Part shown: piece after piece, positions 46,852 through 54,993 of the stretch
Layout of the letters: every line of letters begins with the position of its first letter
How positions within the stretch are numbered: position 1 is the stretch's first letter
Assembly (NCBI GenBank): GCA_018606645.1
Contig: JAGVRI010000011.1
Coordinates: 65,346-129,345 of the forward strand
DNA from: Chloroflexota bacterium
Lineage (GTDB): Bacteria; Chloroflexota; Anaerolineae; JAAYZQ01
Reading direction: 5' to 3'
Length of the DNA: 64,000 bases
The notes under the pieces: generated by a model
What the model was told of the DNA's origin: nothing
Database searches by the model: none
What the model saw: the letters and a program-made list of their open reading frames with translations, nothing else
Program-made: the position numbers and the translations under genes

Positions 46852-46907
46852 ATCTGGCAGGGCGATGTTCAGTTCTTGAATCGGAAGACACAGGATTTGA
46901 CAAAGCT
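46841..46907. repeat. 14-bp perfect inverted repeat agctttgtcaaatc / gatttgacaaagct spanning both divergent -35 boxes
   Basis: Arms 46841-46854 and 46894-46907; exact reverse complements. Confidence 0.9.
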
Positions 46908-46925
46908 CGCGTTCTATGCTAATAT
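46897..46925 (+). promoter_or_regulatory. arg operon promoter (TTGACA-N17-TAATAT)
   Basis: -35 46897-46902, -10 46920-46925. Confidence 0.85.
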
Positions 46926-46951
46926 GCGCTTGAAAGGTAAGGGAGTATTTC

Positions 46952-47029
46952 ATGGACGAAGCAACTGTTTCGTTGACTCTGTTTAAATGCCGACGACCGG
47001 GGAAGGAGCCAGGCCACCTGTCTGGATAG
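46952..47029 (+). CDS. arg operon leader peptide MDEATVSLTLFKCRRPGKEPGHLSG
   Basis: 25-aa ORF with SD AAGGGAG; tandem CGA CGA Arg codons at 46991-46996; upstream of terminator and argG. Confidence 0.7.
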   Translation: MDEATVSLTLFKCRRPGKEPGHLSG

Positions 47030-47061
47030 GCTCAACTCGGCGTCGCTGCGAGAGACACAAT

Positions 47062-47095
47062 AGAGCCAGCCCCAGATAGGGGCTGGCTCTTTTTA
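47062..47095 (+). terminator. arg attenuator terminator
   Basis: agagccagcccc-agata-ggggctggctct followed by TTTT, 70 nt before argG. Confidence 0.92.
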
Positions 47096-47163
47096 TGCGA
47101 TGGAATTCCCATCGCACTTTTGTTTTAAAGAGAAAAATATAACAGATGGCCAGGAGGTGCAGC

Positions 47164-48435
47164 ATGAAAAGAAACAATAACCCGGTGAAAAAGACGGTCC
47201 TCGCCTACTCCGGCGGACTCGATACCTCGGTCATTGTCCCCTGGCTGCGAGAAAACTATGGATGCGAAGTGATCACCTTCACCGCCAACATCGGCCAGGG
47301 TGAGCAGGAACTGATCGGCCTGGAGGAAAAAGCCCTCGCCAGCGGAGCCAGTCGGGCCTATATCATGGATTTGCGTCAGGAGTTCCTGGTTGAATACGCA
47401 TTCCCGACCATGCAAGCCGGCGCCGTCTACGAAGGGATGTATTTATTGGGCACTTCATTTGCTCGACCTCTCATCGCCAAGTATCTGGTCCAGGTGGCCG
47501 AACAGGAAGGAGCCGACGCCGTGGCCCATGGGTGTACCGGCAAAGGCAACGATCAGGTCCGTTTTGAGCTGACGGTTCAGGCGCTCAACCCCTTCCTTCG
47601 CATCATTGCACCCTGGCGCGAGTGGGACATTCGCTCTCGCGAAGATGCCCTGGCCTACGCCCGCCAGCGCAATATCCCGGTGACGGCAAGCGAGCGGTCG
47701 ATCTATAGCCGCGATCGCAACCTCTGGCATTTGAGTCATGAAGGGGGTATTCTGGAGGACCCCTGGACCGAGCCCCACGAGGAGATGTTCCAGCTCACCG
47801 CTGCGCCTGAGGCTGCCCCCGATGCGCCCCACTACCTGACCCTAGACTTTGAGAAAGGCGTGCCGGTGGCCCTGGATGGGGAACCTCTGGGGCCAGTGGA
47901 ACTCCTCACCCAACTCAACGAACTGGGCGGCATTCACGGCGTAGGCCGCGCCGATATGGTCGAAAACCGCCTGGTGGGCATCAAGTCCCGGGGAGTGTAC
48001 GAAACCCCCGGCGGAACCATCCTGTATACCGCCCATCGCGGCCTGGAAAGCATCTGCCTGGACCGGGAAACTCTCCATTACAAGGAAATCGTCGGGCTTC
48101 GCTACGCCGAGCTGGTCTACTATGGCCTGTGGTTCACCCCGTTGCGCGAGGCACTGGCTGCCTTTGTGGCCAAGACCCAGGAGCGGGTGACGGGACGTGT
48201 GCGCCTCAAGTTGTACAAGGGAAACTGCACCGTCGTTGGACGCACATCCCCATTCAGTCTCTATCGGGAGGACCTGGCTACCTTTGGTCGTGACGACATC
48301 TACAACCAGGGTGATGCCGAAGGGTTTATTCATCTCTTTGGTCTGCCCCTTAAAGTCAAGGCCCTGATCGATCGGCAAAACGGAATCCCGCTGGAACTGG
48401 CAATCCCAGATTACTCCCATTTCAAGCGCGATTGA
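47164..48435 (+). CDS. argG: Argininosuccinate synthase
   Basis: [37 protein letters not shown] 47164 with SD AGGAGG. Confidence 0.97.
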
Positions 48436-48470: not shown

Positions 48471-49853
48471 ATGCTGTGGGGAGGACGATTCGAATCGCTG
48501 CCGACCGAGGCCATGCGCCGCCTGAATGACTCGTTTGCGTTTGATCGCCGTCTTTACGCGACGGATATCGAGGCGAGTATCGCCTACGCCAGGGCCCTGG
48601 CTCGAATTGGGTTGATCGCTTGCGAAGAGCTGCTCCAGATCACGGCTGGCCTGGAGCAGGTACGAGCCGAGTTCGACGCCGGTACCTTTCGAGCCCAACC
48701 CGACGACGAAGATATTCACACTGCGATCGAACGACGCCTGGCTGAACTCATTGGTCCGCTGGCCGGCAAACTCCATACAGGCCGGTCCCGCAATGACCAG
48801 GTCACCACCGATCTGCGCCTCTATCTCCTGGACGAGATGGACGCGTTGAAACCAAGGTTGGCTGAGCTGCAGTTGACCCTCATCGAAAAAGCCGAAGCCA
48901 GCCTGGATATTATCATGCCGGGCTACACCCATTTGCAGCCAGCGCAACCGGTGCTGTTCAGCCATTGGTTGATGTCCTATTTCTGGAAATTCCAGCGCGA
49001 TCAGCAGCGTCTGGCCCAGATAGCATCGCGCGTCGCCGTACTGCCGCTCGGCGCCGGCGCCCTGGCCGGGCATCCCTTTGGTCTCGATCGCCGGGCTCTG
49101 GCCGTCGAACTCGGATTCTCGGCTGTAGCCGAGAACAGCATGGACGCTGTCAGCGACCGGGACTATGCCGTGGAATTTCTCGCCTGGGCAGCGCTCCTGC
49201 AGGTCCATCTGAGCAATCTGGCCGAAGACCTGATTGTATGGGCTAGTCACGAGTTCGGCTTTGTGGAGATTGCCGAAGCCTATTCCTCTGGTTCCAGTCT
49301 CATGCCCCAAAAGAAGAATCCGGACTCGCTAGAGCTGATCCGGGGCAAAACAGGCCGAGTCATCGGCCATCTGACCGGACTGCTGATCACCCTCAAGGCT
49401 TTGCCGTCCACGTACAACAAGGACCTTCAGGAAGACAAGGAGGCCACTTTTGACGTGATCGATACCTTGCACCTGGAACTTCCCGTCATCACCGGGGTGA
49501 TCCGAACGCTGAAGGTCAACGCGGCCCGCATGGCCGAGGCGCTGGACGATGCCCTGCTGGCGACCGATCTATGCGATTACCTGGTACGCAAGGGGGTGCC
49601 CTTTCGTCAGAGTCACTACTGGGTAGGTCAGGTCGTCCGACGGGCTGCACAACAAGGAGTGAGCCTGCGGGAGCTGCCCCTGGTTGAATACCAGGCCGTC
49701 CATCCGGCCTTTGCCGATGATCTGACTACAGTTCTGGACTTTCAACGCTCGGTCGCTGCCAGGGATACCGAAGGCGGCACCGCTCCGTCGGCTCTCCGTG
49801 CTCAGATCGAGAGAGCCAGGGAGCTAATGATACAAACCAATTCAAATCATTAA
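48471..49853 (+). CDS. argH: Argininosuccinate lyase
   Basis: LWGGRFES, HTGRSRNDQVTTDLRLYLLDE, GSSLMPQKKNPDSLEL. Confidence 0.97.
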   Translation: MLWGGRFESLPTEAMRRLNDSFAFDRRLYATDIEASIAYARALARIGLIACEELLQITAGLEQVRAEFDAGTFRAQPDDEDIHTAIERRLAELIGPLAGKLHTGRSRNDQVTTDLRLYLLDEMDALKPRLAELQLTLIEKAEASLDIIMPGYTHLQPAQPVLFSHWLMSYFWKFQRDQQRLAQIASRVAVLPLGAGALAGHPFGLDRRALAVELGFSAVAENSMDAVSDRDYAVEFLAWAALLQVHLSNLAEDLIVWASHEFGFVEIAEAYSSGSSLMPQKKNPDSLELIRGKTGRVIGHLTGLLITLKALPSTYNKDLQEDKEATFDVIDTLHLELPVITGVIRTLKVNAARMAEALDDALLATDLCDYLVRKGVPFRQSHYWVGQVVRRAAQQGVSLRELPLVEYQAVHPAFADDLTTVLDFQRSVAARDTEGGTAPSALRAQIERARELMIQTNSNH

Positions 49854-49862
49854 GGAGGAACG

Positions 49863-50030
49863 ATGATGGTCGAGTGTCCAGAATGTGCGGCGGTTCTTGA
49901 TCTGACGTCCGATCTCGAACTCGGCGAGATCGTGGTCTGCCCCGACTGTGGAGTAGAGCTGGAGGTCGTGGGCCTGGACCCGGTCGAATTGGCGCTGGCG
50001 CCCGAGATCGAAGAAGATTGGGGAGAGTAG
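49863..50030 (+). CDS. lysW: LysW amino-group carrier protein, [55 protein letters not shown]
   Basis: 55-aa ORF absent from track; two CxxC zinc-ribbon pairs and C-terminal EDWGE; followed by lysX-type ligase. Confidence 0.95.
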
Positions 50031-50034
50031 TGCC

Positions 50035-50886
50035 ATGAAGATCGGGGTGTTGTGCTCGCGAGTGCGAGTGGAGGAAAAGCAGATCTTCACCGCCCTAGCC
50101 CAACGAGGGGTCCCATATGATCGGCTGGACCCACGGGAACTGGTCCTGGAACCCGGACGCAACGGATTGGAGAGGTACGATGCCGTTCTGGTCCGTTGTC
50201 TGAGCCATTCCCATGCCTACTATGCCACTCGTTGGTTAGAAGACCTGGGCATAAGGGCGGTCAGTTCCCATCAGGTGGTGGCAACGTGCGGCGACAAGTT
50301 GCTGACTACTGCTGCCCTGCAAGCGGCCGGACTCCCGGTTCCCCGGTCTGTGATCGCTTTTACCCCAGAGGCGGCTTTGCAGACCATCGAGAGTCTCGGC
50401 TACCCGGTTGTCTTGAAACCCCTTGTCGGATCGTGGGGCCGACTCTTGGCCCGCATCAACGACCGGGATGCAGCGGAGGCGCTGCTGGAACACAAAGCGA
50501 CCTTGGGCGGCACTCAGCACGGAGTATTCTATATCCAGGAGTATATAGACAAACCCGGCCACGATATTCGCACTCTGGTGGTTGGAGACAAGGTGGTCTG
50601 TGCGATCTACCGGCGCTCGGATCACTGGATTACGAATACAGCGCGGGGTGGAGAAGCGTTGCCCTGCCCTCTCACCCCGAAACTGGTGGAGCTGTCGCTG
50701 GCTGCAGCCCAGGCCGTCGGTGGGGGCATCGTCGCTGTCGATCTGCTTGAGAATCGGGAGGGCCAACTCCTGGTCAACGAGGTGAACCATACCCCCGAAT
50801 TCCACGGAGCCATGCAGGCCACCGAGGCCGATATTGCCGGCACAATGGTCGAATATCTGTGGCAGATTGCCAGGGGGAAGGCATGA
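50035..50886 (+). CDS. lysX: LysX/ArgX-type LysW-amino acid ligase (ATP-grasp, RimK family)
   Basis: [47 protein letters not shown]; directly follows lysW. Confidence 0.92.
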
Positions 50887-51920
50887 TCCAGGCCGCGATT
50901 GTAGGCGCTTCAGGCTATGTCGGGGGGGAGCTGCTGCGTCTGTTGCTGGCCCATCCTCAAGTTCAGGTGACACAGATCACCTCGGAAACCTATGCCGGCC
51001 AGTATGCCTATTTTGTCCACCCCAATCTGCGGGGCCGCACCGATCTCCGCTTTGGCCGTCTGGCTGACCTGAACCCCTGCGACCTGCTCTTTCTGGCCCT
51101 TCCTCATGGCCATGCCATGGAGCAGATCGAGGGGTTTGCCACCATGGCCGAGCGGATCATTGATCTGTCGGCCGATTTCCGTCTGAAGAATCCGAGTGAC
51201 TACCAGCCCTGGTACGAACGCCAACACCCGGCGCCGCACTGGCTGGACCGTTTTGTCTATGGCGTGCCAGAGCTTCATCGGGAGCAACTTGCCCAGGCGC
51301 ACTATGCCAGCGGCACGGGGTGCAATGCCATCGTCACCTTGCTAGCCTTATGGCCCCTCTATCGGCGCGGCGTAGTTCGTGAGACGGTGGTGGAGGTCAA
51401 AGTCGGTTCTTCAGAGGGAGGGCACGAGCCCAGCCCGGCTTCTCATCATCCAGAGCGATCCGGTGTCATCCGCACCTATGCGCCGGTTGGCCATCGCCAC
51501 CTGGCCGAACTGATCCAGGAACTAGGCCTGAACCCCCAGCAACCTGGACTGCACTTTTCCGTCACTTCGGTAGACATTGTGCGCGGAGCGTTGGCCACCT
51601 GTCACTGCCTGCTCCAGCATCCCCTGGACGAGCGCGATGTCTGGCAGTTCTATCGTGAGGATTATGGCGCTGAACCTTTTGTGCGCCTGGTACGGTCCAA
51701 ACGCGGTATTCATCGCTATCCCGAACCCAAGATCCTCTCCGGTTCAAACTACTGCGACATCGGGTTTGCCGTCGATCCCGCACAACAACGTTTGGTCATC
51801 ATCGCCGCCATTGATAACCTGATGAAGGGCGCGGCCGGTACGGCGGTGCAGGCCATGAACGTGATGATGGGCTGGCCAGAGACGCTGGCGCTGGACTTTC
51901 CAGGGCTTCATCCCATCTAG
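50883..51920 (+). CDS. lysY: LysW-linked N-acetyl-gamma-glutamyl-phosphate reductase-type (ArgC/LysY)
   Basis: [44 protein letters not shown]. Confidence 0.92.
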
Positions 51921-51969
51921 GGGAGCCAAGAGACTTATGTCGAGTATCTATCCGCCAAAGGAGGCAGAC

Positions 51970-52776
51970 ATGATTGTGGTGAAAATGGGGGGTAGTGATG
52001 GGGTGAACCTGGAGGCGGTATGCGCCGACATCGCCACCCTGGTGGGAGCCGGCGAGCAGATCGTCTTGGTCCATGGCGGTTCCCATGAGACCAATCTGAT
52101 CTCAGAAAAGCTGGGGGTCCCGCCCCGCTTTGTGACATCACCGTCCGGCCATGCCAGCCGGTACACTGATCGCCAGACGTTGGAGATCCTGGTCATGGTG
52201 GAGGCCGGTCGGATCAACAAACGGATCGTCGAACGGTTGCAGCAGTCTGGAGTCAACGCCATCGGGCTCTCCGGGCTAGATGGACGACTGCTCGAAGCGA
52301 AGCGAAAAGAAACCCTGCCGATCGTAGAGCACGGCAAGCGGAAGGTGCTCCATGGGGAATATAGCGGACAGATTGAGAGGGTGAATATCTCACTGCTACG
52401 GATGCTGTTGGAAACAGGGTATGTGCCGGTAGTTGCTCCATTGGCCATCAGTCACCGCCATGAAGCCTTGAATGTGGACGGTGATCGGGTTGCCGCCGCC
52501 ATCGGCTCGGCCTTAAATGCCCAGGTTGTGGTCATCCTTTCCAACGTACCTGGCCTGTTAAAGGATCCAACCAATGAAGCCAGCCTGATCTCCCAGGTGC
52601 CGCTGTCGCAAGCACAGGAGTACCTGGAGCGCTTCGCCCAAGGCCGGATGAAGCGCAAAATGCTGGGAGCCATTGACGCCCTGAAGAGTGGCGTAAAGCG
52701 GGTAATGATTGCCGACGGGCGGGTAGAGCACCCTCTGCAACGTGCCCTGGCTGGTTGGGGAACAGTGATCGAGTGA
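51970..52776 (+). CDS. lysZ: LysW-linked acetylglutamate kinase-type (ArgB/LysZ)
   Basis: [36 protein letters not shown]; start trimmed to 51970. Confidence 0.92.
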
Positions 52777-52783
52777 GGCGCCA

Positions 52784-53944
52784 ATGATGTCGAATCCTCT
52801 GATTGATCTCGAAGAGCGCTACGATAGCGGCATCTATCCCAAGCAGCCCCTGGTTCTGGTGCGGGGGGAAGGCGCACGGGTGTGGAGCCTGGACGGCCAG
52901 GAGTTCATTGACTGTGTGGGCGGCCATGGGGTGGCGAACGTCGGTCATGCCAATCCGGTAGTGATCCAGGCCATCACCGAGCAGGCCGGGCGGCTGATGC
53001 TCTGTCCGAACGGATTCTACAACGATCAACGGGCGCGTCTCCTGGCCGAATTGGTGCGCATCGCCCCGCCAGGGTTAGAGCGCGTCTTTCTCTGCAATTC
53101 GGGCTCTGAAGCGGTGGAGGCGGCGATCAAATTCGCCCGACTGAGTACGGGCCGGATCAAAATCATCGCTGCGATGCGCGGCTTTCACGGCCGGACGTGT
53201 GGTGCGTTGTCCGCTACCTGGAACAAGGCCTACCGAGAGCCGTTTGAACCGCTCCTGCCTGGTTTTGAATTTGTGCCGTATAATCGTCTCGACCGGATGG
53301 CCCAGGCCATCGATGACCAGACGGCTGCCGTTCTCCTCGAAGTCGTTCAGGGCGAAGGAGGAGTGATTCCTGGCGATGGTGACTATTTGCGCGGCGTGCA
53401 GGCCCTGTGTCAGGAGCGGGGAGCCTTGTTCATCGTGGACGAAGTGCAGACCGGTTTCGGGCGCACCGGGCGGATGTTTGCCAGCCAGCATCATAACCTG
53501 CAGCCGGATCTGATGTGCCTGTCCAAGGGCATCGCTGGAGGTTTCCCCATGGGAGCCGTGCTGATCGGTCCCAGAATCGGCAAGTTACCCGTCAAGTCCC
53601 ACGGGTCCACCTTTGGCGGCAACCCTCTGGCCTGTGCCGCTGCGCTGGCGACTATCCATTATCTCGAAACAGAAAACCTCCCAGAGAAAGCGGCCCAGGT
53701 GGGTGCACGGCTCTTGACCGGCCTGCGCTCCATTCACTCCCCTCTGGTTCGCGAAGTACGCGGGCTGGGGTTGATGGTGGGCCTGGAACTCAAGATGCCA
53801 GCCGGCCCCTACCTGGCTGCCCTCGCCGAACGGGGCGTACTGGCCCTTTCTGCCGGGACCAATGTCATTCGCTTCCTGCCGCCCCTTGTCATCACTGCTG
53901 AAGAGATCGATATGGTGCTTCAGCGCGTCGCGGAGGTCCTGTGA
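52784..53944 (+). CDS. lysJ: LysW-linked aminotransferase (ArgD/LysJ)
   Basis: Class III aminotransferase: [47 protein letters not shown]. Confidence 0.92.
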
Positions 53945-54993
53945 ACGACGAGGTCTCGTTTCTGCAAGAACTGGTGGCCATCCCCAGCCCCTCTGGGCAG
54001 GAAGATGCTGTGGCCTGCTTCTTGATCGATCAGATGGAAAGACGGGGATTCGACGCATATCGCGATGAGGCCGGCAATGTGATTGGGGTCCTGGGCCGCG
54101 CTGCTGCCGAACGGACGATTGTGCTCTTGGGTCACATGGATACCGTCCCCGGTCAGATCCCCGTACGGCGGGAAGGAGAACGTATCTACGGCCGGGGGAT
54201 CGTGGATGCCAAAGGCTCACTGGCTGCGTTTGTGCTGGCCGCAGCGCGGCTGCAGCCCTCTCTGACGAACACGCAGATCATGGTCATCGGGAGCGTGGAC
54301 GAGGAGGCTCACAGCCGGGGGGCGCGCCATCTGGTCACCACTCTGCCACCTCCCGATTACGTCATCATTGGCGAACCCAGCCACTGGCAAGGCATCACTT
54401 TGGGTTACAAAGGAAACCTGAGTTTCCACTACTGGCTCCAGCAACCGGCGGGACACAGCGCCGGCCCGTTCCCCAGTCCTGCTCAAAAGGCGATCGATCT
54501 GTGGAACCGCCTCATGGACCTGGCCGCCGAGTATAATAATGGCAGGTCAGGACACTTTACTACCCTGGATCCTGCGCTCCTGGAATTCGTTACCTTTAGC
54601 GATGGTCTCTCGGACAGGGTGGAGCTCAAGATCGCGGTGCGGCTGCCGCCGGGCCTGCCAGTTTCTGAGCTGCAACGCACCCTCCAGACCTGGTGCAATG
54701 GCGCCAAGCTTGAATTTTACCCCAGCGATCCGGCTTTTCAAGCAGATAAGCACACTCCCCTGGTGCGGGCGATGCTCCAGGCCATCCGTCAGCATGGCGG
54801 ACAACCCTCTTTCAAGCTCAAGACAGGCACGTCGGACATGAACATCGTCGGGCCGGCCTGGGGATGCCCGATCCTTGCCTACGGACCTGGAGACTCATCC
54901 CTCGACCATACTCCTCATGAGCATCTGGAGATATCGGAATTCCTGCGGGCTGTCGACGTTCTTACCCGCGCCCTGGAACTTCTGAACGGATAA
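53941..54993 (+). CDS. lysK: LysW-linked carboxypeptidase/deacylase (LysK/ArgE-type)
   Basis: M20 peptidase: [46 protein letters not shown]. Confidence 0.9.

Follow-up and report, generated by a model that had tools for sequence, protein, structure and literature searches.

A predicted arginine-tuned, ribosome-mediated attenuator upstream of argG in a Chloroflexota bacterium and its candidate relatives across the phylum

The argG operon and its leader

The window analysed here, a stretch of 64,000 nucleotides, comes from a Chloroflexota bacterium with a genome of 4.27 Mb; judged by argG, its nearest named relatives belong to the Anaerolineae (Chloroflexota). It carries a presumed arginine biosynthesis operon in the order argG-argH-lysW-lysX-argC-argB-argD-lysK, and the region between the promoter and argG has the layout of an attenuator. 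A preliminary description of this DNA had listed a promoter, a Shine-Dalgarno sequence, a leader ORF with tandem CGA codons, duplicated GAGCC arms and a terminator; inspection of the window sequence located every one of them where it had been placed, with the duplicate arms GAGCCAGGCC/GAGCCAGCCC recovered as a direct repeat. The features are as follows.

46897-46925, + strand: sigma-70-type promoter TTGACA-N17-TAATAT, with TG preceding the -10 box (sequence; TTGACA-like boxes also lie before homologous leaders)
46939-46945, + strand: Shine-Dalgarno sequence of the leader, AAGGGAG (sequence)
46952-47029, + strand: predicted leader peptide ORF, MDEATVSLTLFKCRRPGKEPGHLSG*, 25 codons (sequence; homologous leaders)
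46991-46996, + strand: putative sensor codons CGA CGA (Arg-Arg), the second 11 codons before the stop (leader comparison)
46991-47001, + strand: 5' arm of the outer 1:2 helix, including the Arg codons and pairing with 47036-47045 (folding)
47006-47016, + strand: region 1, GAGCCAGGCCA, a near-copy of the terminator 5' arm (direct repeat, folding)
47018-47033, + strand: region 2, CTGTCTGGATAGGCTC, spanning the leader stop, with region 1 or region 3 as its partner (folding, comparison)
47027-47029, + strand: leader stop codon TAG, inside region 2 (sequence)
47036-47045, + strand: 3' arm of the outer 1:2 helix (folding)
47062-47095, + strand: strong intrinsic terminator made up of regions 3 and 4, with a T tract (folding, covariation)
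47063-47079, + strand: region 3, GAGCCAGCCCCAGATAG, part of the terminator (folding, covariation)
47096-47116, + strand: second hairpin, TGCGATGG..CCATCGCA, kept in close relatives, with a weaker T tract behind it (sequence comparison)
47164-48435, + strand: argG, argininosuccinate synthase, the first gene under the predicted control (NF001770, 618 bits)
48471-49853, + strand: argH, argininosuccinate lyase (named by inspection)
49863-50030, + strand: lysW, amino-group carrier protein (TIGR01206)
50035-54993, + strand: lysX/argX, argC (lysY), argB (lysZ), argD (lysJ) and argE-like (lysK), the presumed remainder of the operon (by inspection)

The second hairpin lies just past the attenuator terminator, and close relatives read GCGCGATGG...CCATCGCG TTTCGTTTT there; it may be a backup terminator or an mRNA stabiliser. 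Two further elements in the window are predicted regulators of other genes. The divergent ilvD operon has its own leader on the minus strand (46781-46607), MIMGEIAAKLLPTTIALVIVLGIELLSLIIEERLVFGRIPA*, rich in Ile, Leu and Val, in which ten bases of region 2 (46677-46668) are complementary to the terminator arm (46627-46618), and this leader is a predicted branched-chain attenuator. A TPP riboswitch occupies 15975-16103 on the plus strand.

Control by ArgR/AhrC presupposes an ArgR gene in the genome. The ArgR profile (PF01316) matched none of 60 genomes of the group, including the genome under study, and was positive in 9 of 14 control genomes.

Competing pairings and the proposed switch

The leader of 169 bases folds with -69.7 kcal/mol, a z-score of -3.9 against dinucleotide shuffles. 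The hairpin formed by regions 1 and 2 is longer than previously described, as an outer helix (46991-47001/47036-47045), which begins at the Arg codons, encloses the region 1/region 2 pairing. The competing region 2:3 pairing comprises 8 bp, CTGTCTGG (47018-47025) with CCAGATAG (47072-47079, terminator 5' arm and loop), and adjoins the GGCTC/GAGCC pairing.

Comparison across loci supports these helices. Eighty-eight aligned elements were fitted to a covariance model, which favours the structure; in this alignment, changes on both sides were found in 11 of 11 terminator pairs, with 98% of cells still paired, and in three of six pairs of the inner 1:2 helix. Relatives have a comparable outer 1:2 helix in a different register, and because the register slides between sequences, column covariation of this helix by MAFFT alignment was unusable. 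The region 2:3 pairing is above chance in comparative tests: region 2 paired with its own region 3 at a mean of -14.7 kcal/mol, against -12.65 kcal/mol (sd 0.21) with region 3 from other loci, a comparison in which shared ancestry is still included. The lowest of 10,000 permutations reached -13.46 kcal/mol, and letter-shuffled sequences gave -8.8 kcal/mol. The proposal that the 1:2, 2:3 and 3:4 pairings are mutually exclusive is thus upheld by folding and covariation. The locus combines a predicted short leader ORF with a Shine-Dalgarno sequence and tandem end-product codons, an intrinsic terminator between this ORF and the first gene, and a protector (1:2) and an antiterminator (2:3) that exclude each other and are conserved with covariation.

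The switch was modelled by partition-function folding of the RNA up to the terminator loop in 16 core leaders, with footprint size and co-transcriptional folding simplified. Without a ribosome, region 2 lies on region 1 (0.67 against 0.15). A ribosome placed at the Arg codon shifts region 2 to region 3 (0.62 against 0.32), a value that falls to 0.13 when region 3 is shuffled; for the window leader with a stalled ribosome, the region 2:3 value is 0.87. When the ribosome is placed at the stop codon, the terminator forms in all leaders folded. The behaviour was not uniform, as five of the 16 leaders (L028, L036, L039, L054 and L112) did not switch to 2:3 with the ribosome on the last Arg pair, and in L010 and L115, and more weakly in L004, region 2 favours region 3 even without a ribosome. 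The suggestion that region 1 sits under the stalled ribosome holds in part: a ribosome stalled at the Arg codons blocks the 1:2 hairpin, mainly through its outer part, and the edge of the footprint falls just short of the inner arm.

Taken together, comparative sequence and folding evidence make it very likely that the element is an attenuator of the ribosome-mediated kind, which governs transcription of argGH-lysWX-argCBDE by sensing charged arginine tRNA. When arginine is scarce, the ribosome would stall at CGA CGA and block the outer 1:2 helix, so that region 2 could pair with region 3, the terminator would not form and the operon would be transcribed. When arginine is plentiful, the ribosome would reach the TAG in region 2 and cover regions 1 and 2, allowing the 3:4 terminator to form. 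In the absence of a ribosome, the long 1:2 hairpin would form, and the terminator as well.

Related leaders in Chloroflexota

The same element was found upstream of argG in relatives, with leader peptides such as MNICSTAIVNDIKRRPEEEPDCPSG, MNSYRHIAVPADNRRRPKEPVSPSG and MTSMNIASRRRNEEEPDHPSG*. Orthologous leaders with Arg codons and duplicated arms, proposed as the check on the arginine reading, occur in about 17 close relatives and in many distant ones. Of the Cys-Arg-Arg sensor proposed earlier, the RR or RRR part is conserved in orthologous leaders and the Cys is not. An intrinsic terminator was present within 300 bases in 49 of 116 argG upstream regions, and a short ORF with RR occurs in 41 of these 49 (the next doublet, LL, in 8) and one with RRR in 25; twenty shuffles of the same regions gave RR in 9-22 (mean about 13) and RRR in 0-6 (mean about 2). 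The distance from the second Arg codon to the stop is 11 codons in 14 of the 16 core leaders, and 10 and 12 in the other two. More distant argG leaders have different peptides and terminators and retain Arg runs; in the cultured Pelolinea submarina (NZ_AP018437.1), argG lies behind an RR leader and a terminator (L150), with a separate chassis. A fixed rule set the start of each peptide, and the argG locus L043, where the frame seems to be broken between the sensor and the stop, was excluded from the peptide evidence. In many Anaerolineae, no terminator or leader was found upstream of argG, so attenuator control is not universal, and no leader was found at the closely related argG genes of Bipolaricaulota/Acetothermia, where argG therefore occurs without the leader.

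CGA is read by an inosine-34 tRNA, and CGA pairs can be slow in some organisms, so the tandem codons could merely be slow, the leader then setting basal readthrough or sensing the general rate of translation rather than arginine. We regard this as very improbable, since all six Arg codons (CGA, CGC, CGT, CGG, AGG and AGA) are used as sensors across the family, which indicates that the sensor reads the amino acid and not one codon, and since other members of the family described below carry Lys, Pro or Gln codons that correspond to their genes.

A covariance model built from 15 argG leaders matched in 176 of 299 genomes of the class (E up to 0.1), and many of these matches lie away from argG. 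The window element scores 84 bits with model R1 and 73 bits with model R2. In its own genome, only the argG element and an element before a phosphoesterase and proS gave good scores; the best secondary R1 match there, C11:30336, apparently lies inside a coding region and was discarded. The common chassis consists of CCRGAC...GTCTGGnTAG across the leader stop and a terminator with CCAGAC or a similar sequence in its 5' arm or loop, and it was found across Chloroflexota; the window has its own variant, with CCAGGCC in region 1 and CCAGAT in region 3. Outside the class and within the phylum, leaders of this kind were found before argG (MTMLRFRRRTQPDDPSG), before homocitrate synthase (MQQHCSKQVKRAKKPDQRSG) and, with Lys codons, before a homoaconitase-like gene (MHSLFVKQVKQSKKPDSWSG*).

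The codon run differs between these leaders, and the gene behind them differs with it (representative gene identities were checked with NCBIfam). Arg leaders precede argC, often with AGG AGG (MYNWTVQLRRSPRHTPDQWSG*), as well as lysW-lysX (L188, L191) and carA (L192). Leaders with Lys codons lie before homocitrate synthase and lysX (MSVVLNADLTKKSKAKKPDLRSG, MQHIINETKKQKKEKKPDAHSG), and Pro leaders precede proS or a phosphoesterase (MPMRLPSPPEPEKPDRRSG), as in the genome under study, where the leader MTQYPGQPCLLSDARSG lies before a phosphoesterase with proS directly downstream of it (L208). Gln-run leaders with terminators lie before glnA in four genomes of one family (L331, L332, L333 and L334), namely MMIHTTVQQQQQQCHPGGVG, a QQQQQQ leader (L332), MITTLIASVNNQQQRLYPKSG and MSAMLIANANNQQQRPCPKSG*; all but the first were identified by visual inspection of the sequence. 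The first shows a matched change, with GGTTGGG as its region 2 and CCCAACC in its terminator. At seven loci (L291, L296, L301, L306, L313, L268 and L218), two elements stand in tandem, with Lys leaders at the five that precede homocitrate synthase or lysX; the genes at L218 and L301 are unclassified.

In a first set of leaders before known genes, the sensor amino acid strictly matched the downstream gene in 53 of 61 cases, against a permutation mean of 21.7 and a maximum of 35 in 20,000 permutations. These permutations ignore kinship, and the leaders had been selected with an RNA model whose initial training set was argG leaders. The combined set comprises 94 leaders, in which all 31 Lys genes have K, 11 of 13 Pro genes have P, and 36 of 50 Arg genes have R outright, with nine more as ties. 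The sensor residues peak at -10 to -14 from the stop for Arg, Lys and Pro alike.

Since the search model was built from argG leaders, the matches away from argG might be generic terminators beside unrelated short ORFs, the shared chassis being convergence or a search artefact and the argG attenuator alone being real. Some weak matches (L262, L264, L270, L271, L280 and L281) are indeed plain terminators; together with L266, where again the terminator is all that is seen, they were left out of the argument. As a general account, however, this is very unlikely, because a model trained on Arg leaders found gene-matched Lys, Pro and Gln runs far above permutation, GTCTGGnTAG lies over the stop in several classes, whether the sensor is Arg, Lys or Pro, and regions 2 and 3 co-vary.

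Another possibility is an arrest peptide: the ribosome would stall because its nascent peptide bound free arginine inside the tunnel, and not for want of charged tRNA; arginine-sensing arrest peptides exist in fungi (the arginine attenuator peptide). This seems hardly likely here, as no peptide conservation is seen outside the sensor codons and the RNA-constrained tail, and the same chassis carries Lys, Pro or Gln runs. In addition, the Arg leaders L193, L195, L200 and L206 stop before region 1 and the tail, and retain the CCGGAC...GTCTGG RNA, which is therefore conserved as RNA and not as peptide.

By the same very likely reading, the window element is the arginine-tuned member of a modular attenuator in use across Chloroflexota, in which one conserved RNA chassis (region 1, region 2 with the stop, and the terminator) would take Arg, Lys, Pro or Gln codons, placed 10-14 codons before the stop, according to the gene that follows. 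It is probable that a single ancestral attenuator of this kind, read by the ribosome and a translational counterpart of the T-box, spread in Chloroflexota through duplication and swapping of its sensor codons (Arg, Lys, Pro, Gln), reaching genes for biosynthesis and for synthetases, at some loci as a tandem pair, that it stands in for ArgR-type repressors, and that its sensors show whether an enzyme of the LysW pathway makes arginine or lysine. For the leaders and their chassis, we infer translation, stalling, antitermination, a response to arginine and common descent from sequence.

Regulation of the LysW pathway by arginine, suggested earlier, agrees with the operon layout and with relatives in which lysW-lysX lies behind an Arg leader and other lysX genes behind Lys leaders. 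No leader or terminator was apparent in the 350 bases upstream of argF in the relatives inspected (offsets for minus-strand short contigs may be off), and control would therefore lie at argG, argC, carA and lysW. Bacterial arginine biosynthesis is mostly described as repressor-controlled, and this group, in which ArgR was not detected, appears to use the translation of Arg codons for its control. The sensor codons would directly indicate the function of LysX/ArgX paralogs, whose substrate is difficult to establish by other means, and would predict regulation in uncultured lineages.

Two side observations concern particular leaders. In the argC leaders L193-L196, L198, L200, L214 and L256, the AGG AGG sensor doubles as a perfect Shine-Dalgarno sequence inside the ORF, with a possible effect on ribosome pausing. 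A metallophosphoesterase-like gene recurs behind the Pro leader, in the genome under study (L208) and at L222, L227, L232, L243, L248, L259 and L308; it had no NCBIfam match and was named from its sequence.

Comparison with known attenuators and T-boxes

The trp, his, leu and ilv leaders of Escherichia coli likewise combine end-product codons, competing 1:2, 2:3 and 3:4 pairings and an intrinsic terminator. In contrast to these, the stop codon here lies within region 2, and one RNA chassis is common to several amino acids, whereas the RNA sequences of enteric attenuator leaders are unrelated to one another. To our knowledge, arginine and glutamine are not among the usual amino acids of classical attenuators. 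The hcs gene of Thermus thermophilus reportedly has a lysine leader-peptide attenuator, in which a Lys-codon leader likewise stands before a homocitrate synthase belonging to the LysW pathway; that case concerns a single amino acid, in a different phylum.

The nearest case found in the literature is from Salmonella, where the speF leader orf34 contains two consecutive Arg codons and links alternative RNA structures to arginine-dependent expression (PMC6386406). It differs in that it controls an ornithine decarboxylase through Rho and RNase G decay, and is neither an intrinsic-terminator attenuator nor concerned with arginine biosynthesis (PMC6386406). A survey of Actinobacteria predicted leader peptides with terminators for trp, ilv and leuS, as well as Cys-codon leaders without terminators, and stated that the arginine, lysine and histidine operons there are not preceded by any conserved RNA element (PMC1262725). 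Our literature search, which took in only a minority of subscription papers, found no earlier transcription attenuator of this kind for arginine or glutamine, and nothing for Chloroflexota; the absence of an earlier report is therefore weak evidence. At both thresholds, no Rfam family fitted the leader, the T-box model did not match it, and the best sub-threshold matches lay mainly over the terminator.

A parallel in organization is the T-box, in which a codon tunes one chassis to many amino acids and which is found before genes for synthetases and for biosynthesis, at times as tandem copies. Modular design of this kind is known for T-boxes, and no counterpart among ribosome-read leaders was found in the literature searched. 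The T-box reads uncharged tRNA through a specifier loop, whereas here the translating ribosome would read the codon run of an ORF; if true, a single chassis adapted to no fewer than four amino acids would represent a modular attenuator of natural origin.
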